From: a virus
Direction: 5' to 3' (one strand)
Length of the DNA: 23,409 nt
Virus record (IMG/VR): IMGVR_UViG_3300017527_000039
Location: 1-23,409 of that record
Part shown: positions 1 to 20,747 of the stretch, piece by piece
Position numbering within the stretch: position 1 is the stretch's first letter
Layout of the letters: each line of letters starts with the position of its first letter
Translations under genes and position numbers: made by a program
The notes under the pieces: model-generated
The model's input: the letters and a program-made list of their open reading frames with translations, nothing else
The model's database searches: none
What the model was told of the DNA's origin: nothing

Positions 1-805
1 CAACTCTATCAGAAACTTTAGGTGCTTGACGCATAAATTTACGAGCAGCTCTTGGGTCTTGTCCAAAAGGAATAAAGTTTCCTTGCATCCCTGCTTGTTC
101 AAGAGGAAGGTTTGAAGGATATACAATTTGTTGTTGATTAAACTGTCCTTGTGAAAGTGGAACCTGTTGACCTTGAAGCAGACTACTAGCAAAAGGTGTA
201 TTTTTAGCTAATGCTAAATTTCCAAGTGTACCTCGCTGTCTCTTAGGAACATCTTCAAAACCACCACCACCAAGATTACCACCTATAGCAAAGTTACGTG
301 GATTCTCAGGCAAAGGTCGTTCAAGTTTATCAAGAGCTTTTGGTAAACTTCTTTTAAACTTACGAGCTGTTTTCATATCTCCAAAAGGAATAGAGTTCTG
401 CTGAACACCTGCTTGATTTAACTGTTGACCGACAACAGGTTCTTCACTACCGGGAAATCTCCGTGGAAAGACCGCAGGTTGACCGAGTTCATTGACTCCT
501 ACCTGTAATCGTTGATCATTTCCTGCAAGTATATTTTGAACAAATGGAGTATTTCTGTTAGCAAGCAGAGTACCAAGTGTTTGTCTTTGCTTTTTATTCA
601 GATCACCACCATTAGCAAAAACATTTACAGCATCTTCCTGCTCCTGTATTCTAGCTGCCTCCTGTCCTTCACGTAGAGCTTCAAGCTCTTGATTCATAGC
701 TTCTAACGCAAGTGTATCTCCCTTATCGAATTTCTCTCCAAGACGAGGCTTATACTTGTTCATTATCGCTTTCGCTTTTTGAGCGTATGTCTGTTTCTTT
801 GCCAT
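1..805 (-). CDS. Glycine-rich putative cargo/ejection protein, C-terminus beyond left edge
   Basis: A reading frame starts with ATG at 805, three bases after the TAG of the preceding gene, and stays open for 268 codons to the left edge, so the C-terminus is missing. Residues 1-60 are charged and helical, probably coiled coil. Two FAxGGxL motifs follow (residues 63-69 and 172-178). Two copies of a module occur: residues 70-161 and 186-268 each begin with a basic stretch, then NTPF, and each ends with an IPFG segment and a basic helix (ARKF). The helical, Gln-rich start and the GG motifs resemble virion proteins encoded after the muzzle gene in crAss-like phages, where internal cargo proteins lie. 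It shares the NxP(F/W) module and the GG motif with the 544-aa protein upstream, so the two probably act together. The cargo role is inference from position and relatedness; no enzymatic motif is visible. Confidence 0.75.
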   Translation of the reverse strand, partial: MAKKQTYAQKAKAIMNKYKPRLGEKFDKGDTLALEAMNQELEALREGQEAARIQEQEDAVNVFANGGDLNKKQRQTLGTLLANRNTPFVQNILAGNDQRLQVGVNELGQPAVFPRRFPGSEEPVVGQQLNQAGVQQNSIPFGDMKTARKFKRSLPKALDKLERPLPENPRNFAIGGNLGGGGFEDVPKRQRGTLGNLALAKNTPFASSLLQGQQVPLSQGQFNQQQIVYPSNLPLEQAGMQGNFIPFGQDPRAARKFMRQAPKVSDRV

Positions 806-808
806 GAT

Positions 809-2443
809 CTAAGTTGTTAACTTGTCACTAAATACATATCCGTTCCACGTCACTTCGCCTTTCTCGGTAAGACCTACAGCAGATTGTTTTGAAACTGCTG
901 AAGGATTTCCTCTAGCGTCTACTGGAACACCACCTACACCTTCTTGATGAGTATTTGATCGACCACCGTATTCTGTAATCATAGGAATCTGGCTGTTTGT
1001 AGGATTATTGTCCATCAGTTCACCTCCCATCTGAAAGGTAGCTCCATAACTAAGATTCTGAGATGGATCATATTGCTCTCTATAGGATTCTGCATCACCA
1101 CGTATACCTGCTGATACTTCTTCTCTTTGAGCAGCAATCTCAGCTTCATCTTCAGCTCTATTTTTGCGAACTTTGCCTACAATAGCATCTGTAGCTGCTC
1201 CTGCACCGATAAGAATAGGACCAGCGATCTGACCGAATCCCGGAATAATACTGACAACTCCACCAACTCCTTTTAATATTTTTCCTGCATTATCTCCTAA
1301 CCAACTTCCAAAACCATGTTGAGGAAGATAGCCTAACAGTTGTCCTCCGTCTTGGTAGATAGGAACATAACCTTCTTGTTGAGTGTCACTTACATTAGCA
1401 AGGAGAGCATCATATTGATCTTGAGTTATATCAACTCTTGGAAGATTACCACCTTCCTGAAACTGACCATACTGATTTCCTACACCAGTAGTTGACATAG
1501 ATGTTATCAAATCACCTATACCTGATCCTTTTAGTTGATCCAACCCCATTTGCTGTATTCCCTGACCTGCTCCGGTCTGACCAATGTTGAATGATCCTCC
1601 TGTACTAGGACCTCCACCAAAACTTCCACCTGCACCTGTATAAGCACCTAAAGCAGCACCACCTATATCCATAGCAAGACTTCCCCAATCTGTGTCAGGG
1701 AGATCAAGATATTTTAAATTCTTCAGGTCTTCGTGCCTCTTAGCAAGCATTGGTGCATTAAGACTTAAAGCTGTACTTCCTTTTCCAAAAGTTTCTCCCC
1801 AAGGTAAATCTCCACCTCCTTGAAACAGAGGAACATTATCAATAGGAATACTATCAATAGGAGTTTCAGTAAGCTGTTGGTCTAAATATCCTCCAAATTC
1901 TTTTTTCCATTTAGAAGCATTACGAGCGAAGTTTGCTCTTTTCTTTTGTAAAGGAGAAGCTTTAGGATCAGCAAGAATATGACTAGCGTGTTGCTGTACA
2001 GTATGTCCCATAGCATTTGCTGCTGCTGTGAACTTACCTCTATTCTCAGGTTTTATGTTAATCTTAGATTGTGCCATAAGTTGTCCTCCTTTTCTATGCT
2101 GTATCAATCCATCCTGAGAATAGTATTTAGCTAATTCGAGATCAGTATCTATACCCAAATTATTCTGCTCTGCATATTCTCTTGCACTATCTCCTGTACG
2201 ATGAACTAGACTATCTCCTTGCTGAACAATCTCAGGATATATCATTGCACTATCCTGACTGAAAGGATGATACGCTAATCCATGTGTACTTGTCTTTCCG
2301 CTTCCGGGATTATAAGGATCAGGTATATTTAATTGATTTCCTTGTAGATACCTCTCAACCCACGGAATATTTTTATTAGCTTGAGTAAGACTATCACTTC
2401 TTGCTCTAAGACTTTTTTTAGGATCGTCTTTCTTTTTAGCCAT
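809..2443 (-). CDS. crAss-like virion protein, putative cargo/ejection protein
   Basis: This 544-aa protein lies directly after the muzzle gene, where crAss-like phages encode internal cargo proteins. Residues about 25-112 form a domain I recall from this group: N-x-P-W, a central STHGLAY and a MIYPEIV strand. Residues 126-180 hold a second recognisable block (KINIKPENRGKFTAAA, then RANFARNASKWK). The C-terminus carries a third (GLTEKGEVTWNGYVFSDKL, 524-542). Between them are a Gly-rich linker (256-300) and a hydrophobic glycine-zipper-like stretch (390-424) that could cross a membrane. Five aromatic-or-His-x-x-GG-x-L motifs are spread along the chain (near 116, 207, 328, 363 and 470). Position, glycine zipper and low complexity suggest a protein packed in the head and ejected with DNA; that role is inferred. 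A structural tail part is the alternative. Stop is TAG; no Shine-Dalgarno precedes the ATG. Confidence 0.85.
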   Translation of the reverse strand: MAKKKDDPKKSLRARSDSLTQANKNIPWVERYLQGNQLNIPDPYNPGSGKTSTHGLAYHPFSQDSAMIYPEIVQQGDSLVHRTGDSAREYAEQNNLGIDTDLELAKYYSQDGLIQHRKGGQLMAQSKINIKPENRGKFTAAANAMGHTVQQHASHILADPKASPLQKKRANFARNASKWKKEFGGYLDQQLTETPIDSIPIDNVPLFQGGGDLPWGETFGKGSTALSLNAPMLAKRHEDLKNLKYLDLPDTDWGSLAMDIGGAALGAYTGAGGSFGGGPSTGGSFNIGQTGAGQGIQQMGLDQLKGSGIGDLITSMSTTGVGNQYGQFQEGGNLPRVDITQDQYDALLANVSDTQQEGYVPIYQDGGQLLGYLPQHGFGSWLGDNAGKILKGVGGVVSIIPGFGQIAGPILIGAGAATDAIVGKVRKNRAEDEAEIAAQREEVSAGIRGDAESYREQYDPSQNLSYGATFQMGGELMDNNPTNSQIPMITEYGGRSNTHQEGVGGVPVDARGNPSAVSKQSAVGLTEKGEVTWNGYVFSDKLTT

Positions 2444-2523: not shown

Positions 2524-5500
2524 CTAAGTGTTAGATATAGTTATAGAAGTCAGTATATCATGCATTGTAAACTTCTGGTCAGCAGTATCATTCGTATAAC
2601 TAAATCTAGCGAACATATGACTATCACGCATACGTGCATATCGCTCACCATCAGGAAGTACTGAGAATCCATTCCTTGCAAATCTAGCTCTTGGAATAGT
2701 AAATCTCCATTTCCTCATCCTACGTTTTACGTTATCTCCGACAATCAAAGGGATCACTCCCGTATGTTGGTAATCATTCCACATTTCAAGATTCTGCCAA
2801 GTAAGACGTTGATCTTGAAGTCCGAGAACAAAGTCATCATCAAAACATTCTGTCAACCATTCAAAATTATTGAATACTGATATATCATGTTGAGATGGGT
2901 TAATGAGTAACGTTAGACTTATCTCTCTGTACACTCCATAGATGTGACCACGATCTCCGACGAAATCGTTGTGCCTGTGGAATTGTCGAAGGTTAGTAGT
3001 ACCGAGTATCTTCTCAAGATAGTTGATTACATATGAAGGTTGATTATCAGTACGACATACAAAACCATTTGTAAGTTCATTCCAGATTAAACCGAAACCT
3101 TGATCATTATCAACCAAATATACTTCACGATATTCAGGATCATAGAACATATGCATTGCATCACCAAGAGTCGTATTCATGTCTTTACGTTCCACAATAT
3201 TATCCCTGAACCAAGAGTTCATTCCTTTCATTATGGAAATCTCTTCTGGACCTTTGGTAAACATGAACATTGATTGATTGATTGCATCAACCCAATATAA
3301 AGCATTAGGTGTAAGAACTATATGTCTCCAATGAGAACATCCTACATCAGTCTTTGCATAATCATATCGTTCCAGAACATCACCTACACCAAGACTCAGT
3401 TGAGCCTGTGATTCTGTCTGAAGTAAAGCTCTTTCGTTTACTGCAATTATACCAAACGCTTGAGGTTGAAAGAAAGTAAGCCTTGTAGTAACTGTCTTAA
3501 GTACTGTTATAGGTCCATATTGAGGATCGACTTCAATGAAAGAATCTGTTCTGAACTTTAACCAGCTATCTTCAATTTCACCGTTGATTTTTTGATCAGA
3601 AGCATAAACCCTTGTGTCAAAGTTCTCAAGCTGAACCCAATCAAACGGTTTAGGAATAAAGATTTTAGTATCGTTAGTCTTTGAATAGACAGTGTTATAC
3701 CGATAAAGGTCTTCATCCTGATATAGAATAATAGTCGGAGTACCTGTTTCGATATTATCATCTGCATAAATACCTGCTTCATCGTGTAGATACTGCATTG
3801 GCTCTCCCTGAAATCTCTGTCTCGTATAACCATCATCTAATCTCAAAGGAAGATTTATACTTGTTTCAACTGGAAATAAAATAACATCAGGGTCTTCATT
3901 AACAGGTCTGGTTTCTTCATTTGTAGCTGTATTATATAGACAATCAAATACTCCTAAAAACGTATCACCTCCGTACACTTCTTTAGTAGTAAGAATAGTT
4001 TTAGCATATAATGGACTTGCTGCAACATATTCATTATTAGCTCTTGATGTGTAACTATGACCACCATACTGAGTTCCATACAGATTTCGTCTGTAATTCA
4101 ATAATCTCATTTCATCGTAGTCTTTCTGGCTTGCATCGAAAGAACCATTTTCTGCGTAAAAATTGAAATTTATTCCTTTATCAGTTTTTCTGCCATCGTT
4201 TTTCGCTTTAATTGGAATACCCTTTAGACTATAATCTAAATCTGTTTGTCTTACAAGTATTCCATCGTCAAGGTCAGTAAAATTATCATCATGAAATTCA
4301 TCTCCAGATACTGCACCATAACTATCACCATCTCTCTGAGGATTATCAAGAGGATCGTAATGAGAGTATTTGATAAGATTATTAAGGACTCCGGTAAGAG
4401 CTGCTGTACCAAGACTAGTTGCACCGTCATCTACAATACCTATGACCTGAATTACATCTTGTGCTTTACTCTCAAGATTTTTATTAAAAGAAATTTCCGG
4501 AGAATGAAGCTGGTATATATCAGCAGCAATTCCAGTTGCTCCTGATCCACTACTAGCTGTATCTTGCCATTCTACGTGCGCTCTATCAGAACCATCAGTT
4601 CCTATATGGTTAGCTAGTCCTTGAGCAAGAACAGTCCTATCAGTAGATTCCCTTTTAACTCTTACAATTTGATAACTAACGGCTTCAGTTGGAACATTGT
4701 CTATATCAAAATCTATACGGAGAGCTTGCATATGAGTGCCACTACCAGTTTCAGTAATAGTAAAAGAGTGAACACCATTAGCAGTTTCTGTACTATGAGA
4801 AGGGAATCGAATATCTCCAATCCATTTTACAAACGATGATATTCCTTTATCGTTAAAGAAGACAATTCCAAAACGATAGATTTCATCTCTATGATAACCT
4901 AAAAAGTCACCTGAGTTCCATGGACTTGAATAACCTGCATACGATTCGTTAGACGGGTTATTTGCAGTACTATTATCAGCCCAATAATCATAAGCAGTTG
5001 CAACGCCTGAACGACCTTCATCAGGTTCTATATCATCAGTACCAAAAGTGTATGATACATTAGGTCCTTCACCTCCTACAGTTGAACCATTACTTTGATA
5101 CATATACCTATAGTAATGATTCCCGTCCCAATTAAGATTGTTATACTGACATATACAATCAAAGTCTTCAGGAATATCTTCCCAATCTTCTCCCGGTTGA
5201 AGAATCTGACCACCAGCAGGACCGTAGTAAAGTTGTTTATCACTACCTCGGATAGCATAAGTATTGTTATCCTCTTCTTGAGCTAATTGTGCAAATCCTC
5301 TACTGCCTGTAGTACCAACTCTATTATAATTGTAGTTCCCTGAAGATGAAGATGATCCTGCAAAACGATATGCTCTTGCATCATAATCTACATCAAAATT
5401 TTCAATCTGTACATTTCCTGCAAAAAGAAAATTATCTTTTGTTTCTAACACTTGAGGAATTAAATAAGTGGTTTGTAACAATCTTAATTCTTCAAGTGTA

Positions 5501-6462
5501 AAAGAGCCAAGACTTTGACCACTATCAGTAACAAAAACCGTCTGTCCGGGATTACCAGTAATATCAATCTCATCAACAACTCGTATTCCGGGATCAGCGT
5601 TTAAGGTAGTCCAGTGTACAGCTACAAGACGTAATCTAGTATAATGAGAAGAAGAGATAGATATACCGACTTTTACAGCTTTTCCTGTATCTTCATCAAG
5701 TTCAGCACCTCTGTATCTAAAATCATTAGGTGCTTCTTCGCTACTACTAGTAATATCAATCAGAGGACTAAAATCACTGAAAACTGTTTCTGATCCATTT
5801 AAAACATATAATTGATAAGCATATTGAACTCTTCCTGCTCTTAAGTTTCCGGTTCCAAATTCTTCTAACCACGGTGTAGTAAGTATGAGATTTCCTGTTA
5901 CTTCAAGAAAATCTTCAGGAATATTCTCAAGATCATTAGTATCAGCATTATAGACAGTATTCAAATATCGAAGTGGATTATGTCCATCAACCCAATAAAC
6001 CTTTTGAATATTTTCAGTTTCATATCTTGGTATAGCAGCTATAGGATTTCCAAATGAAAATTCTAAGTTGCCACTGTAAAGAAGATTTCCGGGACTTACA
6101 TCATGAACATAGTTAAGGCTAATTGTTTCAAAGTTAATTCCCGGAAGATTTTCAATATCTTCTATTGGAACTTGCAAAATATAATCTGTATATCCAATGC
6201 TAGGTGTGCTTGTTGGATTTCTCGTAGTAAAGAGAATTATCTTATCTCTGAGAATACAATGACCAACAATAAATAAAGCACCACCAGAATCAATATCAAG
6301 ACGTTGAATAGTTCCCATCATGTCCTCAAGCGCACCACTCGTAACTCCATCCTGAGTAATTATGCGAACATTCTCAGCATCAAAATAATGCTTGTTATCA
6401 TATTTATTCTTGGATGAATCTTGGTCCATCCCTGACGAAAACTCATTCGTAATTATAGCCAT
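2524..6462 (-). CDS. Tail stabilization / muzzle-type protein of crAss-like phage
   Basis: This 1312-aa protein begins with a pattern typical of crAss-like stabilization (muzzle) proteins: a short strand, then GMDQDSSKNKYDNKHYFDAENV (residues 11-32), followed shortly by GALEDMMGT (43-51). The rest is beta-rich with many Tyr, Asp and Asn, no transmembrane segment and no catalytic motif, as expected for a large structural protein. In phage crAss001 the muzzle closes the distal end of the tail barrel, and distant P22 gp10-like stabilization proteins do a similar job. Its ATG overlaps the TAA of the 245-aa ring protein gene by one base (TAATG), so the two are probably translationally coupled and made in related amounts. 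The stop codon is TAG. The family call is from memory of the N-terminal signature, size and gene order, and I consider it firm. Confidence 0.88.
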   Translation of the reverse strand: MAIITNEFSSGMDQDSSKNKYDNKHYFDAENVRIITQDGVTSGALEDMMGTIQRLDIDSGGALFIVGHCILRDKIILFTTRNPTSTPSIGYTDYILQVPIEDIENLPGINFETISLNYVHDVSPGNLLYSGNLEFSFGNPIAAIPRYETENIQKVYWVDGHNPLRYLNTVYNADTNDLENIPEDFLEVTGNLILTTPWLEEFGTGNLRAGRVQYAYQLYVLNGSETVFSDFSPLIDITSSSEEAPNDFRYRGAELDEDTGKAVKVGISISSSHYTRLRLVAVHWTTLNADPGIRVVDEIDITGNPGQTVFVTDSGQSLGSFTLEELRLLQTTYLIPQVLETKDNFLFAGNVQIENFDVDYDARAYRFAGSSSSSGNYNYNRVGTTGSRGFAQLAQEEDNNTYAIRGSDKQLYYGPAGGQILQPGEDWEDIPEDFDCICQYNNLNWDGNHYYRYMYQSNGSTVGGEGPNVSYTFGTDDIEPDEGRSGVATAYDYWADNSTANNPSNESYAGYSSPWNSGDFLGYHRDEIYRFGIVFFNDKGISSFVKWIGDIRFPSHSTETANGVHSFTITETGSGTHMQALRIDFDIDNVPTEAVSYQIVRVKRESTDRTVLAQGLANHIGTDGSDRAHVEWQDTASSGSGATGIAADIYQLHSPEISFNKNLESKAQDVIQVIGIVDDGATSLGTAALTGVLNNLIKYSHYDPLDNPQRDGDSYGAVSGDEFHDDNFTDLDDGILVRQTDLDYSLKGIPIKAKNDGRKTDKGINFNFYAENGSFDASQKDYDEMRLLNYRRNLYGTQYGGHSYTSRANNEYVAASPLYAKTILTTKEVYGGDTFLGVFDCLYNTATNEETRPVNEDPDVILFPVETSINLPLRLDDGYTRQRFQGEPMQYLHDEAGIYADDNIETGTPTIILYQDEDLYRYNTVYSKTNDTKIFIPKPFDWVQLENFDTRVYASDQKINGEIEDSWLKFRTDSFIEVDPQYGPITVLKTVTTRLTFFQPQAFGIIAVNERALLQTESQAQLSLGVGDVLERYDYAKTDVGCSHWRHIVLTPNALYWVDAINQSMFMFTKGPEEISIMKGMNSWFRDNIVERKDMNTTLGDAMHMFYDPEYREVYLVDNDQGFGLIWNELTNGFVCRTDNQPSYVINYLEKILGTTNLRQFHRHNDFVGDRGHIYGVYREISLTLLINPSQHDISVFNNFEWLTECFDDDFVLGLQDQRLTWQNLEMWNDYQHTGVIPLIVGDNVKRRMRKWRFTIPRARFARNGFSVLPDGERYARMRDSHMFARFSYTNDTADQKFTMHDILTSITISNT

Positions 6463-7199
6463 TACCGTCCAATATTATTGTGAAGTATAAGTCTTTCACT
6501 ATCAGGAGAATATATGAACGAAGTATTATGGAGGTCGGTATGAATCCTCAATCGTAGGAATCTGTTCTTGATGGATTCCATCTCGTCAATAGAAGGAATG
6601 TGCGCTGCCGTTCCAGCAGCACCTATATACCATGCTCGATCTACTTCAAGCTTGTTATATTTTCTCTCTGTCATATGATCTTGCATAAAGAGCCTGAATC
6701 CTATTCTCTCAGCTATGAACGCCTGTACAGCCATGATGAACTTAATATCATCAGGGACAAGAGGCATCCCTAACGCATTAGTAGGAAATGCTCTATAATG
6801 TAATTCTACCTGTCCTTCTTCAAAGGATGTGAAGATGTAGTTGTTATTAAGCGTGTAGCTGTATTGAGATTCTCTTTGGTAAATCTGATCCATATCTCTT
6901 AGATACGAACTTGATTTACAGACCATTGGCATCTTCGATTCATAGTCTCTTGCAAGAAAAACCGAATGTACATCACACGGTAGTTCTCCACGGTAGTTGG
7001 TTATGGTAAGTGGTTCAGGCATATTGTCACTTCCATCAGTAATCTTATCAACCAGAGGTTGAGGCGCACCGATTAGTGACATCACATCCCATATCCATTC
7101 TATTACTTCATCGAATTTGATTTCAAGATCGAATCCATAATCTCTATAAACACGTTCAATAATGTAACTTACATCAACAGTTTTGCTAGTTAAGCTCAT
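6462..7199 (-). CDS. Ring / tail-barrel protein (P22 gp4-like head-to-tail adaptor, crAss-like)
   Basis: This 245-aa protein closely follows the crAss-like adaptor pattern I remember. Residues 9-20 form the first helix, then EWIWDVMSLIGAP (34-46) and DKITDG (51-56). ITNYRGELPCDV lies at 66-77, YIFTSFEEGQVELHYRAFP at 121-139, and GMPLVPDD at 144-151. Residues 153-170 are a hydrophobic helix (AVQAFIAERIGF), and 188-215 read DRAWYIGAAGTAAHIPS then MESIKNRF. Proteins of this kind are distant relatives of P22 gp4 and form one of the stacked rings between portal and muzzle. It is followed at once by the muzzle gene (one-base overlap) and preceded by the 99-aa gene after a 14-bp gap. No Shine-Dalgarno is evident before the ATG. 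The exact ring number cannot be assigned from sequence alone. Confidence 0.87.
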   Translation of the reverse strand: MSLTSKTVDVSYIIERVYRDYGFDLEIKFDEVIEWIWDVMSLIGAPQPLVDKITDGSDNMPEPLTITNYRGELPCDVHSVFLARDYESKMPMVCKSSSYLRDMDQIYQRESQYSYTLNNNYIFTSFEEGQVELHYRAFPTNALGMPLVPDDIKFIMAVQAFIAERIGFRLFMQDHMTERKYNKLEVDRAWYIGAAGTAAHIPSIDEMESIKNRFLRLRIHTDLHNTSFIYSPDSERLILHNNIGR

Positions 7200-7513: not shown

Positions 7514-8015
7514 AGCTTCTCCTTACTTTTGGTTTCTGTTCATAATAATCAACCTCAATGTCTTCATTCTGAATGACTGCTGACAATTCTCGCTTATGCG
7601 CTCTTGTCATAGTCAGAGAGTACGCTGTATTGTTTGGTACTGAGCAAGTTGATTTATCCCAAAACCACTTGCAGTTATATCCATTGAAATGTTTATTCAA
7701 ATGATATACTAATTGCTTTCGCTTTTTTGCTTCAGGGTCTTTCGCCCATAATTTCTTAGTTGCAGCCCAATCCGGTCTCAAGTATCGTTTGTCAATGTCA
7801 CCGTCCGGAGTCATAGCAACAATTACCTTTTGCTTTCTAATACCGACACTACCCAAAGAAGGCATAGAAAAGTCTCTACCTCCTAAGATAACTCCATGTA
7901 CCACTTCATCTATAAAAGTCTCCCACACACGCTTAAACGTGCGAAAATCGACAGGTTTGGTTGAAGTACCCTTATAGAACCTGTGAATATTTTTAATCCC
8001 TTGCTTCTCCTGCAT
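7497..8015 (-). CDS. Conserved crAss-like tail-barrel cluster protein
   Basis: This 172-aa protein has an architecture I associate with a small conserved protein of crAss-like tail modules. A helix with FRTFKRVWETFIDEVVHGVI (residues 24-43) leads into GRDFSMPSLGSVGIRKQKV (46-64). Then come DWAATKKLWAKDPEAKKRKQ (82-101), a YHLNKHFNGYNCKWFWDK segment (104-121), and a basic C-terminal helix. The N-terminal helix plus beta-hairpin loosely recalls small DNA-bending proteins, but no such fold can be proved here. It overlaps the preceding ring gene by 23 bp and the following 99-aa gene by 17 bp, which argues for tightly coupled expression with the ring proteins. It is probably a structural subunit of the neck or barrel. 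Function is inferred from context. Confidence 0.8.
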   Translation of the reverse strand: MQEKQGIKNIHRFYKGTSTKPVDFRTFKRVWETFIDEVVHGVILGGRDFSMPSLGSVGIRKQKVIVAMTPDGDIDKRYLRPDWAATKKLWAKDPEAKKRKQLVYHLNKHFNGYNCKWFWDKSTCSVPNNTAYSLTMTRAHKRELSAVIQNEDIEVDYYEQKPKVRRSYERQS

Positions 8016-8706
8016 CTAAAGTGTCAGTTCCATCATTGACCACATCACTCGGTACTGCTGATTGAGGAGCAATGCGCTCTTTGATAATTAAATTCTCAAG
8101 ATCATCTCTCATAGCTCTGCTGATTGGATAACGTCCATCGTCAGAGTAAAGAGAATTTCCATCTACGTCTACAAACTGTGCAACCTGTGTAGGGTTCTGA
8201 AAGACACCTTCGACATCAATATACTGAACTCCTTTATGGTATCTGTCTCCACTGCTTAGATAAATCCTGCTATCTCGTAAGAAACAGAATATCAAAGCTT
8301 GATTGAACCTACCGTTTCCAGAATACAATGCACGATCATAACTTACTAAGTTCCATTTGGTTGCAAGTTTATCAGCAGGTCCGATTCGTGTAAAAGTACC
8401 TTCATAGTTCCTTCGATCTATAGTCTCAGGGACTTCAAGAACAGTTCCATACATGAATCGACCAGCCGTAATAGTGGGATGAACCGATGAATCAATTGGT
8501 TCAATTTCCAAAGCTCCTAAAGACTGAGTGAAGACATCATCTATAACCCTTAAATTTCTGTCAAACTTCTGCTTTAGGAGCCTTGCTCTTGTGCTATGTA
8601 CCATATCCTTAATCTGATCAATGTCGATATTATCGTCATCTGAGATTCTACCTCTGACAGACTCAAGGATACTATGTGCGATCTGATTAAGTGTTACGTT
8701 GTACAT
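7993..8706 (-). CDS. crAss-like ring protein of the tail barrel
   Basis: The 237-aa product matches the pattern I remember for a crAss-like ring protein. The N-terminal helix reads TLNQIAHSILESVRG (residues 5-19). DQIKDMVHSTRARLLKQKF follows at 30-48 and a long beta-rich middle contains FTRIGPADK (105-113). YPISRAMRDDLENLIIKE (193-210) is the C-terminal helix, and a short acidic tail ends the protein. The combination of helix, RIGP motif and YPIS helix is characteristic. These proteins stack between the portal vertex and the distal tail. The coding region overlaps the next gene by 23 bp, and a six-base gap separates it from the 101-aa gene before it. The ATG at 8706 has an A-rich leader without a Shine-Dalgarno, usual for Bacteroidota phages. 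Ring number is not assignable without alignment. Confidence 0.86.
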   Translation of the reverse strand: MYNVTLNQIAHSILESVRGRISDDDNIDIDQIKDMVHSTRARLLKQKFDRNLRVIDDVFTQSLGALEIEPIDSSVHPTITAGRFMYGTVLEVPETIDRRNYEGTFTRIGPADKLATKWNLVSYDRALYSGNGRFNQALIFCFLRDSRIYLSSGDRYHKGVQYIDVEGVFQNPTQVAQFVDVDGNSLYSDDGRYPISRAMRDDLENLIIKERIAPQSAVPSDVVNDGTDTLDAGEARD

Positions 8707-9932: not shown

Positions 9933-12900
9933 CTATAAATTTAGTTGTTTTTTTAATGCGGTGACTTCTTTACGCAAAGTTCTAACTTTCTTTTCAAGTT
10001 TCCCTATTCTATCGTCGTGACCTTGATCAATAGCATAGAGTTGTTGAATAGCTCTGTGAAAGTGTACAGGAAACTTAGTCTCCTTGATATTCCAATAACC
10101 TTTTTTATCCTTAAAGGTTAGAGATGGCATTATTTCAGACATCTGAGTACCATCCCATCCAATCTCACCGTAGCAAGTACCGTTTTTCCTATCAAATTTT
10201 ATAAGTCTCTGATTTACTATCCATCCAAGTGAATCAGGTTGATACTCTTCAATATTCTCTTTAAGACGTAAATCAGAAGAAGTATTATAAGTAACCTGAC
10301 CTGTAGATGTATTATGTTTCAGATAAGTACTTGCATCTTGATTCAGAAGATTACCCATGTAAATTCTACCTGCTGTAGTTACTGCAAAATCTGATGAAGC
10401 TAGGCTAGAACTAAAGCTAGTAGAAGAATGAATCTGAAATGCTGTAAGACTCACATCATATCCTATTATAAAACGTGTTGAGGTATTTTCTCTAAAATAA
10501 ATCCTACTATCACTTCCTGTATTAGACTGCATATAGATGGAAGTAGTAGAGGTTGCTCCATCAACATAAATTGCAGCAGTGCTTGATCCATATATGTAAT
10601 AAGCAAGAGTACTCCAACTGTGTCTAAGAGTCATAGTAGTTGTACTACCTTGATACCAATACATCTGACCATAACCTACTCTAAGGTCCGAAACAGTTGT
10701 TCCTCTTCTATGCTGTACTCCTGCGTGTATATTACTCCATACATAGAAACCAGCATAATCATTTGACTGATAGGAATTTGGTCTGAAGATCATTCCCTCA
10801 GTTGCAGTCAATAATCCTGATGCACCATATATCCACGTAGCAACTCTTCCTAACTCTGCTATAATCGTAGTACCACCATCTCTGTGCCAAACCATACAGT
10901 GATCAGTTGTGGTACTAGCAGTTCCATTGATAGCTAAATGACCTAGACGGTTCAACTCAAACTTGTGAATCGTACTAGCACCTTCCCATGTATAAAATGC
11001 TAGATTCCCTTGAGTGACACTAGCTCCTTGAGTTGCACGTATTAGACCTATTCGTTTATAAGTCTCAGTAGAATCATCACTACAAAAAGCAATCTCTCCA
11101 ACAGTACTTCCACTAGTGTTAGGATCACCAAGAAGAACGTAAGCTGGAAACCGATCATTATTTGTTTGTGTTATCTGATGCGTATAATCTGCATAAGTAA
11201 GAATTGATGCTGCTGTTGATGATCCACCAACGACATCACTAACTTCTCTGATTAGTCCACTTGTAGTTTGAAGGAAGATGTCACCACCTGACATCTCATT
11301 TACCAGCTTGAGATTATCCTGTGCAGCTACCGAAAATCCAAAATATCCTGATCTGGTAGATTGAGCTGCACTATCAGCAAAAAATGACATATACACATGA
11401 TCATCTGATGCACCTGCTTTCAGAGCTAACGATGTAGCACCACCAGTAATGGTAAGGTCTGTTCCACTAAATACTAGGTTTGCTGAGTATAAGAAAGCAG
11501 TTCCAGCACCGTTCATATAAGGAACCTGTCCACTAGTTCCATATGCAGGTGGACTACCTGCTACTAAAGTTGACAGAGCTACAGTCCCGTTAGTTGAGTC
11601 TGTAAACTCCATATCACCTGAATTTAAAGCAATACCGGAAGATGTAGATTCAAGATTAAGTATATGTGTTACTACTCTTGACCAAGCATTACTGTTATCT
11701 CCTAGTTGAGAATCATCATCAGCATCTGGTAATATTGAAGTATAAGTCGTGTGTGTTCCACCTCCTGCAAATCTCCACGCTATTGATCCACCATTGTAAA
11801 CATCAATATATGCAGTTCCTCCGGAGATATAATCGTTTGCACTTACAAATTGTATTTGTTCATTAGTTGCTAATCGTAAATCATCTCCTGCTGTAACAGT
11901 AGTGATCACATTTGCTGCTACTTGCCACGGTGAACTTCCTCCACTTATACTAGCTACAGATCGTTTAGTAAGTAATCCGGTTGTATCATCAATGGCAACA
12001 AGATGATCTTCTGTATCATCATCTCCTAATTCTGGAATATACAATGAACCGTCTTCTCGAACATCAAATGTCTTATCTGAAGATATATTATAGACCTGTA
12101 ATGTACTATCAGCAGTGTTGCTAACGTCTCTGATTGCAACATAAGACTCGCTTGTAGTTAAATCTCCTAAAGAAATATGAGGAGTAGTAGCATGAGTTGA
12201 TATAATTGAAATTGTTGCAGGAGAATTGATTTCACCGGAAGTTCCAGTTTTACCTTTTATAGTTAATCCAATTGCTCCACCATACTTATATGCTGTTGAA
12301 CCACCAAACCCACCAGTTCCATCAAGCGACATTACATAAGACGAAGTATTATATGACATATAGGAGACTGATTGAATATCTCCTCCGGAAGAACCAAAGA
12401 CAATATAATTATTTGAAGCTGTTCCCCATGAGACATCTCCTATTGACGCTGATCCTTCTATAAGGTTTCCCGATGAATCTACCTGTAAAGTATAAGTTGC
12501 TGTACCTGTGTGAGTTCCAGAGCCATATGTACCAAGAAGCATCGCTCCACTACCATATACCACAAATCTCTCTGACGATAAAGTTGCAACACGTAATACT
12601 TTTGAACCTGCTGTTGAAAGGTTATTTTTAGTATCAAAATTATATGCAACTGCTGAAGCTCCATCGGCAGTTCCTCCATCAAGGTCCGTTCTCTTAATAC
12701 TGGTAAAGTACATTTGAATCCTTCCGTACTCATAAGAAGCACGATCAACTAACAAACCGTTAAGGTTTGCTTGAAAAGAACTATGTGCTATAAGATTACC
12801 AGCACCATCAGTACTAAGATCGGTATTAGATTCAATCGCTCCACTAGCAGAACCGAAGGTCAGATATTTGTTGGTAGCTGTTCCCCATGCTGCACCAGCT

Positions 12901-14225
12901 CCACCAAAGTCAGTACCTAATGCAAATTCCGTTTGTACTCCATCTACCATTTGCCAAAACGACCAATGGGTATCTTCTGTACCATCTGAAGCATCATCAA
13001 CTATCAGTTCTAACCGTCCTCCTGTTAATGTCTGAGGAGTTGCATTGTCATTATCAAAGTAACCTTTTATCGCTCCAACTGTATCACCATCGTTTGCTGT
13101 TGATGCAGTAATCCTTTCTTTATGCCACTGTATTGTTGCTCCATACGCATCATCTGATATTTGCTCAATTACAAGACCAGAATAAGTATTAGATGTAGTG
13201 TTAGACTTTACGATAACACCAGTAGAATTGATTTGAAGTTCCTCACCACTGTTGGCAAAGAATGAAATAGTATTCCCTGCACTTTCTACAATATAAGTAT
13301 CAGTTCCTCCATCAAGGTAAATCTTTCCAGTAGCAGCTATAGATAAATCTGTCCCATCGAATTTCAAATTCGCTTCAGCGTTCAGTTCGTCAGTAGTACC
13401 TGTAGCAGTAACTATTCTATTATCAGCTTGATTAGTAACAGATACGTCAGATGATCCAGCTCCTGCAACTATTGATGCAACTGATCTTTTAGTTATTAGA
13501 CCAGTTGAATCATCAATAGCCATTACGTGATCTTCAGCATCATCGGAACCAAGACCAGTAAAATATGCTGATCCATTTTCCCTAAAATCAAAGAAAGAGG
13601 AATCGTCTCTAGCTCGAAGTCTGAGAATATAGGTTTTTGTAGTAGTAGAAGGGTCCTTAACTGTAACGAAAGCATCTGATGCTGAGGTACTTCCAATTCC
13701 CATAAAAGCACCATCAGTAAAAGAAGTCAACGAAAAAGAAGTATGCCAACTCTGAATACTAGCAGTAGCAGAACTTGCTCTTACCTGCCATGTAGCAACA
13801 TTGTTATATTCCAATTTAATTTCTCCTCCATCAGAAGCTCCACCATCAATAGTTAGAACCTTTGAAGAAATACTGTAAGATAACGATGAATCAGATTGTA
13901 CATCTCCGGTTGCAGAACCAAGTACGATATATTGATTAGTGGCAGTTCCCCATTCTACAGCACTTATTGCATCTATAGCATCATATACCGCACCAGACGT
14001 AGGAAGATGCGTATCGTCGTTCGTTAGAGTTGTTTCAATGTCATTTACAAACGCACCGGACGTTAATGCCATACCACTCGATTTGAGTGTCATGACATTC
14101 GTCGATTCGGCAGTAATTTGTATAAACCCTGAAGCGTCCTCTTCAATGGACGAGTTAGTGCTTGCAAAAAGCAGCTTACACGCTACATTGGTCAAGTGGA
14201 TGCTTGACTCGAATGGATACGCCAT
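9933..14225 (-). CDS. Giant tail fiber/spike with C-terminal S74 self-cleaving chaperone
   Basis: This 1430-aa protein has a short N-terminal virion-anchoring segment (1-89) ending in TSGAVYDAI, and a very long Ser/Thr/Gly-rich beta-structured shaft. Its C-terminal intramolecular chaperone is of the peptidase S74 type. The cleavage motif is SDLRLKENI: Ser1317 and Lys1322 have the i, i+5 spacing of the Ser-Lys dyad known from endosialidase-type chaperones. The chaperone (about 114 residues) ends in a coiled coil (1390-1430) that would align three chains before release. The shaft has three WGTA(T/S)N modules (W92, W447, W600) and two GL(I/L)TKRSVASI segments (242-252, 750-760). It is expected to be a homotrimeric receptor-binding or depolymerase spike; I see no obvious glycan-hydrolase catalytic motif. 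It follows the 667-aa fiber gene after six bases, and the two N-termini resemble each other. Confidence 0.88.
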   Translation of the reverse strand: MAYPFESSIHLTNVACKLLFASTNSSIEEDASGFIQITAESTNVMTLKSSGMALTSGAFVNDIETTLTNDDTHLPTSGAVYDAIDAISAVEWGTATNQYIVLGSATGDVQSDSSLSYSISSKVLTIDGGASDGGEIKLEYNNVATWQVRASSATASIQSWHTSFSLTSFTDGAFMGIGSTSASDAFVTVKDPSTTTKTYILRLRARDDSSFFDFRENGSAYFTGLGSDDAEDHVMAIDDSTGLITKRSVASIVAGAGSSDVSVTNQADNRIVTATGTTDELNAEANLKFDGTDLSIAATGKIYLDGGTDTYIVESAGNTISFFANSGEELQINSTGVIVKSNTTSNTYSGLVIEQISDDAYGATIQWHKERITASTANDGDTVGAIKGYFDNDNATPQTLTGGRLELIVDDASDGTEDTHWSFWQMVDGVQTEFALGTDFGGAGAAWGTATNKYLTFGSASGAIESNTDLSTDGAGNLIAHSSFQANLNGLLVDRASYEYGRIQMYFTSIKRTDLDGGTADGASAVAYNFDTKNNLSTAGSKVLRVATLSSERFVVYGSGAMLLGTYGSGTHTGTATYTLQVDSSGNLIEGSASIGDVSWGTASNNYIVFGSSGGDIQSVSYMSYNTSSYVMSLDGTGGFGGSTAYKYGGAIGLTIKGKTGTSGEINSPATISIISTHATTPHISLGDLTTSESYVAIRDVSNTADSTLQVYNISSDKTFDVREDGSLYIPELGDDDTEDHLVAIDDTTGLLTKRSVASISGGSSPWQVAANVITTVTAGDDLRLATNEQIQFVSANDYISGGTAYIDVYNGGSIAWRFAGGGTHTTYTSILPDADDDSQLGDNSNAWSRVVTHILNLESTSSGIALNSGDMEFTDSTNGTVALSTLVAGSPPAYGTSGQVPYMNGAGTAFLYSANLVFSGTDLTITGGATSLALKAGASDDHVYMSFFADSAAQSTRSGYFGFSVAAQDNLKLVNEMSGGDIFLQTTSGLIREVSDVVGGSSTAASILTYADYTHQITQTNNDRFPAYVLLGDPNTSGSTVGEIAFCSDDSTETYKRIGLIRATQGASVTQGNLAFYTWEGASTIHKFELNRLGHLAINGTASTTTDHCMVWHRDGGTTIIAELGRVATWIYGASGLLTATEGMIFRPNSYQSNDYAGFYVWSNIHAGVQHRRGTTVSDLRVGYGQMYWYQGSTTTMTLRHSWSTLAYYIYGSSTAAIYVDGATSTTSIYMQSNTGSDSRIYFRENTSTRFIIGYDVSLTAFQIHSSTSFSSSLASSDFAVTTAGRIYMGNLLNQDASTYLKHNTSTGQVTYNTSSDLRLKENIEEYQPDSLGWIVNQRLIKFDRKNGTCYGEIGWDGTQMSEIMPSLTFKDKKGYWNIKETKFPVHFHRAIQQLYAIDQGHDDRIGKLEKKVRTLRKEVTALKKQLNL

Positions 14226-20027: not shown

Positions 20028-20747
20028 TTAAGTATAGTCAACAATTACTACCCAAGCTCTAATCTCCTGTATTCTAACCTGATTGCTTGCGTGTTGAGAC
20101 CCGAATCCTGTAAAGCGAATATATTGTCCATTAACCTTTGATGCACCATCAAAAGGAATCTCTACCCATGCGCTAGGCGTAGTTATGTTAGCTCCGGTTA
20201 TAACACGGTTATTTTCATTATCAAGACCAACAATAGTATTGGATATATAGACATCAAGATCAGTGAGAAGATTTCGGGAACTACTACCAACTCTGAGTTC
20301 TATTTTACTAATTCGTTTTTTGTAATCCCTTAATTGCCACGTAATTTGATGTGCTTCATCCACATCATGTTGCCAATAAGTATTGTTGAGTCCATCTAGC
20401 GTAAGTATCGCTTCATGTCCAACTTCTTCACCACACACATCTTCGATAGCAATAGGAGTAAACCACTTTCCATCTTTTACATTAAAACTCAGTTGAGTAT
20501 TATCATAATCAAAGAAATCTATAAGATTCTTTAGTTCACTTCTTCGTCTAGCTAACTCAATATCAAATATTTCTAATGTTGGAGAACCCTCACATTCAGA
20601 TATAAGTTTTCGGGCAACATCGTTTAAAGACATAATCTCCTCTATTGCAGCAACCTCAATCTCTAACTCAGTTCTGACATATACTTCATCTGGATTGTTC
20701 CAGAGAGCTAAATCTCCACCTAACGGTTGATAATATCTTTTTGCCAT
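20028..20747 (-). CDS. Virion protein with galactose-binding (F5/8 type C-like) domain
   Basis: This 239-aa protein has a helical N-terminal part (26-80, with many Glu, Leu and Ile) that may trimerise or attach to another fiber. The C-terminal jelly-roll-like domain (about 95-235) has the hallmarks of a discoidin or F5/8 type C fold. These are ILTLDGLNNTYWQHDVDEAH (114-133; the domain-start pattern of D-G-x-x-x-T-x-W), a buried ITWQLRDYKKRISKIELRVG (135-154), LDVYISN (164-170), WVEIPFD (194-200), GQYIRFTGF (207-215), and VRIQEIRAW near the end. Such domains bind sugars, which fits recognition of capsular or cell-surface glycans. It sits between two fiber genes with short gaps (6 and 11 bp). 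The fold call is by pattern; sugar contacts cannot be identified. AGGAAA lies close before the ATG. Confidence 0.78.
   Translation of the reverse strand: MAKRYYQPLGGDLALWNNPDEVYVRTELEIEVAAIEEIMSLNDVARKLISECEGSPTLEIFDIELARRRSELKNLIDFFDYDNTQLSFNVKDGKWFTPIAIEDVCGEEVGHEAILTLDGLNNTYWQHDVDEAHQITWQLRDYKKRISKIELRVGSSSRNLLTDLDVYISNTIVGLDNENNRVITGANITTPSAWVEIPFDGASKVNGQYIRFTGFGSQHASNQVRIQEIRAWVVIVDYT

Follow-up and report, generated by a model that had tools for sequence, protein, structure and literature searches.

Cargo protein 1 of a crassvirus is encoded as two halves and its modules are joined by a repeated Gly-Gly motif

The two open reading frames (ORFs) that follow the muzzle gene in a metagenomic phage genome are the halves of a single cargo protein 1 (C1), the homologue of crAss001 gp45, cut in a loop of the portal-bound domain. 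The aromatic-x-x-GG-x-Leu motifs repeated along both ORFs are joints between the modules of this protein. The stretch of DNA analysed, hereafter the window, comprises 23,409 bases, and its end cuts the ORF of the C-terminal half. C1 is already known, as are its portal-bound domain and Pfam model; in the open-licence literature we found no report of a split C1 or of the GG joint motif, nor of a second cut site, an endonuclease at the junction or the shuffling of C1 modules.

Genomic context

The window represents the tail module of a phage of the Crassvirales, with muzzle and ring proteins identified by Pfam:

2524..6462, minus strand: muzzle protein (PF25731, 675 bits)
6462-7199: ring 1 (PF24228, 140 bits)
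7993-8706: ring 2 (PF25702, 100 bits)

The gene order is muzzle (2524-6462), then the ORF at 809-2443, then the ORF at 2-805. The earlier note had placed its motifs in two proteins after a muzzle gene, and the Pfam match bears this out. In crAss001 the muzzle protein is gp44 and the next gene encodes gp45, which is cargo protein 1; C1 genes are placed directly after the muzzle gene and before C2 and the vRNAP subunits, the two window ORFs follow their muzzle gene in the same way, and in L004 a further gene is found at the C2 position after the C1 halves. A search of bacterial genome contigs with the muzzle profile gave no matches. Elsewhere in the window, 9933-14225 encodes a fibre-like protein of 1430 aa, without a Pfam match, whose C-terminal segment resembles an intramolecular chaperone (LRLKENIEEY...), and 20028-20747 a putative tail or fibre protein with a weak F5/8 type C (discoidin-like) match (26.0 bits, cut-off 28.2).

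Two ORFs encode one cargo protein

The features of the split protein are as follows:

809..2443, minus strand: C1-N, N-terminal half of cargo protein 1, 544 aa, stop codon TAG, after the muzzle gene; PF25725 at residues 511-543
2..805, minus strand: C1-C, C-terminal half, 268 aa shown, running off the window end; completes PF25725 when joined
806..811, minus strand: junction TAG-ATC (then ATG), the split lying inside the portal-bound domain
818..934, minus strand: CARG1a, first half of the portal-bound domain (...GEVTWNGYVFSDKLTT)
647..799, minus strand: CARG1b, second, helical half of the portal-bound domain (KKQTYAQKAKAIMNKYK...)

The Pfam family PF25725 (crAss_CARG1) represents the portal-bound domain of gp45 and has a curated cut-off of 27 bits. 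The C1-N ORF, which stops within the domain, scored 18.8 bits against it (profile positions 33-65), and the C1-C ORF alone gave no match. When the ORFs were joined across the TAG, the score was 31.1 bits, above the cut-off, and the match extended from profile position 33 to 126. A structural model of the joined domain, of moderate confidence (mean pLDDT 63.7, core 75-86), had the portal-bound chain of gp45, 7qog_M, as its first-ranked and only significant Foldseek match (E 7.9e-4, probability 1.00). The two structures aligned with Z 9.2 over 107 residues (rmsd 5.7, gp45 residues 433-552), versus 3.9 for the next, unrelated entry. The alignment behind the model included crAss001 gp45 (L013) as a row, so the match supports homology without being an independent proof of it. 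The domain model was the informative one: Foldseek with the full 814-aa low-confidence model returned nothing, and neither did the fused protein find anything significant among the sequences of solved structures. A tblastn search of phage records with C1 matched chiefly the KIK module described below, and a scan of viral contigs with a single C1 protein gave no matches.

C1-C starts with an ATG 3 nt past the TAG of C1-N and is homologous to L004 11890-13881 (663 aa). We classify the protein as a C1 homologue that occurs in split form. The two adjacent proteins of the earlier note are thus two as ORFs only; as protein, both are halves of one. The anatomy of the split C1 and its joints is well supported.

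The split is conserved and does not reflect recoding

The cut falls in the same loop, just after YVFSxxL, in ten phages (the window, L003, L004, L008, L009, L011, L012, L036, L046 and L043), which we call split-A. This is a count of distinct phages from which the repeats and near-copies L006, L007, L010, L040, L044, L049 and L051 were left out. In crAss001 the loop where these relatives are cut carries about eight extra residues. Nine of the ten have a spacer of -1 to 4 nt between the halves, and the tenth, L043, has an endonuclease gene there. The stop codon at the split is TAG in the window and L004 and TAA in the other eight, and the downstream frame is 0, +1 or +2, being shifted in seven of the eight TAA phages. 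In L008, for instance, the halves of PF25725 (profile 3-66 and 77-122) lie in two ORFs of different frame. Although errors are possible in metagenomic contigs, the identical cut in ten of them excludes a sequencing error, and because stops and downstream frames differ among relatives, readthrough as a common mechanism is ruled out.

A single TAG separates in-frame halves in the window and L004, as would be expected if this codon were read as an amino acid and the window encoded one unsplit C1, and TAG recoding has a documented precedent in crAss-like phages (PMC7886860). We rejected this reading as very improbable, given that the other eight split-A phages use TAA, seven of them with the downstream start in another frame, that a whole endonuclease gene separates the halves in L043, and that the other large genes of the window contain no internal TAG.

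Other lineages, a second cut site and a junction endonuclease

In the Cellulophaga phage phi14:2 the portal-bound domain is likewise divided between two genes at the same loop, with profile positions 16-74 of PF25725 in g070 and 75-126 in g069, and the record of this phage marks both genes as encoding virion proteins detected by MS/MS. It differs from the window in a long loop insertion with two HExxH motifs, another module order, few GG motifs, and halves that are contiguous in frame across one TAA.

A second clade (L047, L055, L058/L060 and L062) is cut at another loop, which lies between both helices of the domain's second half, always with a TAATG overlap. Profile comparison of its domain with that of the window gave a probability of 93.5 and an E value of 2.2e-7. 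Its junctions are located as follows:

L047 12442; L055 13753; L058 6829; L062 12940: second-site junctions

C1 is uncut in crAss001, DAC15, cr126, cr128, cr108, cr85, cr111, Dulem 41, bajarodcaudo 1 and L015, ten phages belonging mostly to the Steigviridae, and also in L048 and L054. On the muzzle tree, where the second-site clade has a support of 99/98, the split label requires at least two changes, and the uncut C1s may have appeared through re-fusion from an ancestral split.

The endonuclease gene of L043 (7222-7911) encodes a GIY-YIG enzyme (PF01541, 25.3 bits, cut-off 22.6), lies exactly between the C1 halves and overlaps both neighbours. The start of the same gene was found in L044, and these are the only two records with an endonuclease at the junction; the window has its 3-nt spacer. 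Because the ORF overlaps both flanking ORFs there is little room for an intron, and a group I intron around it was rejected, with no Rfam match. Since L043 branches inside the split clade, its endonuclease may have been inserted when the gene was split already.

This organization resembles the genes-in-pieces of T4-like phages, such as Aeh1 nrdA, which works although mobE splits it, gene 43 of phage 25, and T4 gene 60/39 (PMC2988022). In both cases a gene that is continuous in relatives appears as two coding regions, and the L043 endonuclease gene, which sits exactly in the split, recalls mobE in nrdA. The T4-like products must reassemble, and the halves of C1 would do so by our interpretation. 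C1 differs in being a structural, ejected protein, and the window junction in having no endonuclease.

A repeated Gly-Gly motif in C1

All seven copies of the aromatic-x-x-GG-x-Leu motif that the earlier note had listed were recovered by pattern search on the minus strand, spanning exactly 272-2098:

272..292, minus strand: joint motif FAIGGNL, between two NPF_b modules
599..619, minus strand: joint motif FANGGDL, directly after the portal-bound domain, the same position as crAss001 FAYGGDT 559
1016..1036, minus strand: joint motif FQMGGEL, before the portal-bound domain
1337..1357, minus strand: joint motif YQDGGQL
1442..1462, minus strand: joint motif FQEGGNL
1805..1828, minus strand: joint motif (L)FQGGGDL
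2078..2098, minus strand: joint motif HRKGGQL

The pattern [FYWH]..GG.L thus occurs seven times in the 812 aa of the two ORFs, where shuffled sequences predict 0.08 (none of 5000 shuffles reached seven), and is absent from the other 6849 aa encoded in the window. GG alone is only mildly enriched in the two ORFs (20 versus 12.7 expected), so that the signal lies in the motif as a whole. The rule that position 6 is always D, N, Q or E and position 7 always Leu describes the window but not the family, in which position 6 is unconstrained (G, D, K, Q, E, V and others) and position 7 follows the preference L>I>V.

The earlier note had proposed to look for the motifs in homologues, and there they proved to be a real, conserved and repeated short motif between modules. 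We counted 58 motifs in 9259 aa of split-A C1s (3.8 in shuffles), 13 in 2521 aa of split-B C1s (0.9) and 49 in 9938 aa of fused C1s (3.7), and none in 10,204 aa of the neighbouring C2 proteins. Motifs are rare in the C1s of Suoliviridae (six in 4653 aa), so that not all crassviruses can depend on them. The copy that follows the portal-bound domain is common to the window, L004, L008, L009, L011, crAss001 (FAYGGDT) and L015 (FATGGPT). Across aligned motifs, identity is 0.72 in the core (aromatic, GG and Leu), 0.42 in the flanks and 0.34 at the x positions. The codons used for the GG pair vary freely, which places the constraint on the protein; with the core kept over its flanks, it appears to be the peptide that is under selection.

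C1 is built of modules and the motifs lie between them

Besides the portal-bound domain, the following modules were recognised in the window:

2099..2401, minus strand: NPF_a module, N-terminal in the window; between TM and CARG1a in L008
1901..2062, minus strand: KIK module (KINIKP...KKRANFARNASKWKK), a small helical domain (model pLDDT about 94)
1613..1801, minus strand: TFGKG module
1097..1333, minus strand: membrane-type glycine-rich segment and charged helix (hydropathy peak at residues 396-414)
323..595, minus strand: NPF_b module, copy 1
2..244, minus strand: NPF_b module, copy 2, cut by the window end

The putative membrane-type segment was assigned by hydropathy, from a single peak (1.68 over 19 residues, 396-414). 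The KIK module is absent in L011 and occurs twice in DAC15, DUF5661 modules number zero, one or two per C1, and NPF_b is doubled in the window and L004 and absent in L003. These differences show that C1 is built of modules that were gained, lost, duplicated and moved between phages. Compared with crAss001 gp45 (PF25725, 7qog), the window protein shares the gene position after the muzzle, the portal-bound domain, the KIK module, a glycine-rich segment of putative membrane type and the GG motifs, one of them at the same place directly after the portal-bound domain. It differs in that gp45 is one chain of 842 aa and the window C1 two ORFs with the domain cut in a loop, in module order, in its extra NPF and TFGKG modules, and in motif number (seven versus two by the loose pattern).

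The claim that the motifs sit between domains and not inside them is upheld by two tests. Among proteins with recognised modules, 53 of 54 motifs fell outside the modules (38% coverage, p 2e-10), the module boundaries having been drawn by hand. The second test has no hand-drawn boundaries and is less biased: 118 of 284 ends of pairwise alignments lay at most 15 aa from a motif, versus 43 for shifted positions, and none of 2000 shifts gave as high a number. The motifs are mostly found in stretches of low pLDDT.

At window 2063-2098, the residues after HRKGGQL (ATGGCACAATCT...) match those at the N-terminus of the L003 and L004 C1 proteins and have a GGAGG upstream. This segment is probably the relic of a former gene start where NPF_a was fused on.

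Proposed function of the joints and of the split

In crAss001, residues 425-552 of gp45 lie on the portal wing and residues 214-245 in the tail barrel, about 420 angstroms apart, and the protein must pass constrictions of less than 50 angstroms, its exit being expected N-terminus first (PMC10172136). In the reading that we consider most likely, C1 is threaded through portal and tail, the motifs give it flexible joints, and two chains together form the portal-grip domain. C1 is an ejection protein stored across the portal and the tail barrel and is thought to leave the virion before the DNA. As to the function of the joints, we infer that each GG pair would be a flexible hinge keeping the modules as separate beads, with the aromatic residue and Leu providing a short, weak hydrophobic anchor, so that the beaded chain could be stretched out and pass portal and tail one module at a time. 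In split phages, the halves would be made as two separate, probably translationally coupled chains that re-form one portal-bound domain by complementation; with a grip domain made of two chains, the tail-side chain could leave without covalently dragging the capsid-side chain. Taken together, the two-chain C1, the motifs as module joints and the mechanism of hinges and complementation make up a reading that we regard as reasonably probable.

A plain flexible linker needs no conserved aromatic residue and Leu, and for this reason a specific partner is possible. The motifs might be short linear docking motifs binding a site that recurs on the tail barrel, portal, capsid wall or vRNAP, a possible but somewhat doubtful reading to which the conservation of the core beyond what flexibility needs lends some weight. 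Binding would be strong and multivalent with many such copies on a 12-fold complex, and in gp45 each of the two ordered segments has GG motifs next to it, at 205 and 260 on either side of the helix bound in the tail and at 559 past the portal domain. The copy number of one to ten per C1 and the variable spacing are nevertheless unlike a fixed docking register, and the strict motifs of crAss001 gp45 (260 and 559) fall outside the segments resolved with symmetry (214-245 and 425-552; PMC10172136). The earlier note had suggested docking to a capsid or ejection partner; the protein does belong to the ejection (cargo) machinery, but the cryo-EM-resolved segments end just short of these motifs.

Modules of C1 move, duplicate and disappear, and moved modules keep a motif at their end (NPF_a has HRKGGQL in the window and HEDGGQI in L008), as they would if the motifs were passive by-products of cassette exchange, a functionless linker carried along with the modules. 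We find this doubtful, because the core is far better conserved than the adjacent linker, the variation of synonymous codons means that there is no repeat at the DNA level, and the same motif surrounds unrelated modules.

An unlikely elaboration of the joint reading is that the GG joints form a dedicated linear code for the order and pausing of module release during ejection and that the repeatedly cut grip domain is a release latch. Once the tail-side chain was pulled out, the grip would come apart and set the capsid-side chain free; the domain is cut at two loops in different lineages.

Processing of C1 by a protease, which the earlier note had raised, would involve cleavage after GG at assembly or after ejection and the release of the modules. 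It is the weaker reading, quite unlikely in our judgement, and nothing observed supports cleavage. The motifs do lie exactly between modules, where a cleavage site would be placed, and metalloprotease-like HExxH motifs occur in phi14:2 g070 (L016 13071-14852), in the insertion in the split loop, and in a gene of cr50_1 called 'peptidase' beside the portal (L026 1149-2444). For g070 this is a remark on the motif, as Pfam assigned no zincin family to it, and no HExxH was present in the C1-region ORFs scanned at other viral-contig loci. The protease sought at the suggestion of the earlier note did not appear either: papain (PF00112), C39 (PF03412) and prohead protease S78 (PF04586) domains, the three families expected, are absent from five complete or near-complete crassvirus genomes (L004, L008, L012, crAss001 and phi14:2), C39 having no match at E<=1 in these five records; the window spans only 23 kb of its own genome. 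The GG at 447-448 of gp45, which is not a strict motif, is intact inside the resolved portal-bound chain (7qog_M, aligned over 433-552), and the model of the crAss001 authors requires continuity across FAEGGGL 260, bridging tail and capsid (PMC10172136). C39 double-glycine leaders also combine a Gly-Gly pair with conserved neighbours, but they have hydrophobic positions upstream of GG, occur once near the N-terminus and need a C39 peptidase, whereas the C1 motif, which is internal and repeated, has its aromatic residue at the third position upstream of the first Gly and its Leu at the second position beyond the second Gly.

That the GG codons (GGAGG) are internal ribosome-binding sites for shorter C1 isoforms would suit the start-like ATGGCACAATCT... 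after HRKGGQL, with GGAGG about 7 nt upstream, but was rejected as extremely improbable, since Shine-Dalgarno-like forms are rarer (11 of 40 motifs) than first-codon GGA usage predicts (18.4) and most motifs have no ATG at a suitable distance downstream.

Crassviruses are among the commonest human gut viruses, and they push large proteins through a narrow portal and tail. C1 is the sole cargo protein seen on both sides of the portal, and a natural two-chain portal-grip domain, found in separate lineages and at two loops, gives a handle on whether both sides leave together. The joint motif can be used to parse C1 into modules, to find C1 in divergent phages and to design linker tests.

Consequences for gene annotation

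The split reading corrects gene calls, because the halves of C1 have the appearance of two uncharacterised proteins, and neither of those in the window reaches the Pfam cut-off by itself. The annotated start of phi14:2 g069 is probably about 114 bases too late (L016 14853-14966, NC_021806.1): read back to the g070 stop, the frame supplies the first helix that the portal-bound domain otherwise lacks and contains no ATG, and readthrough or a rare start is possible at this junction. In cr50_1, the KIK module was found as a stand-alone gene of 72 aa near the portal gene (L026 2450-2668), with a GG joint at its start (YKDGGIHIKKKNRGKF), and is annotated as a transcriptional regulator.
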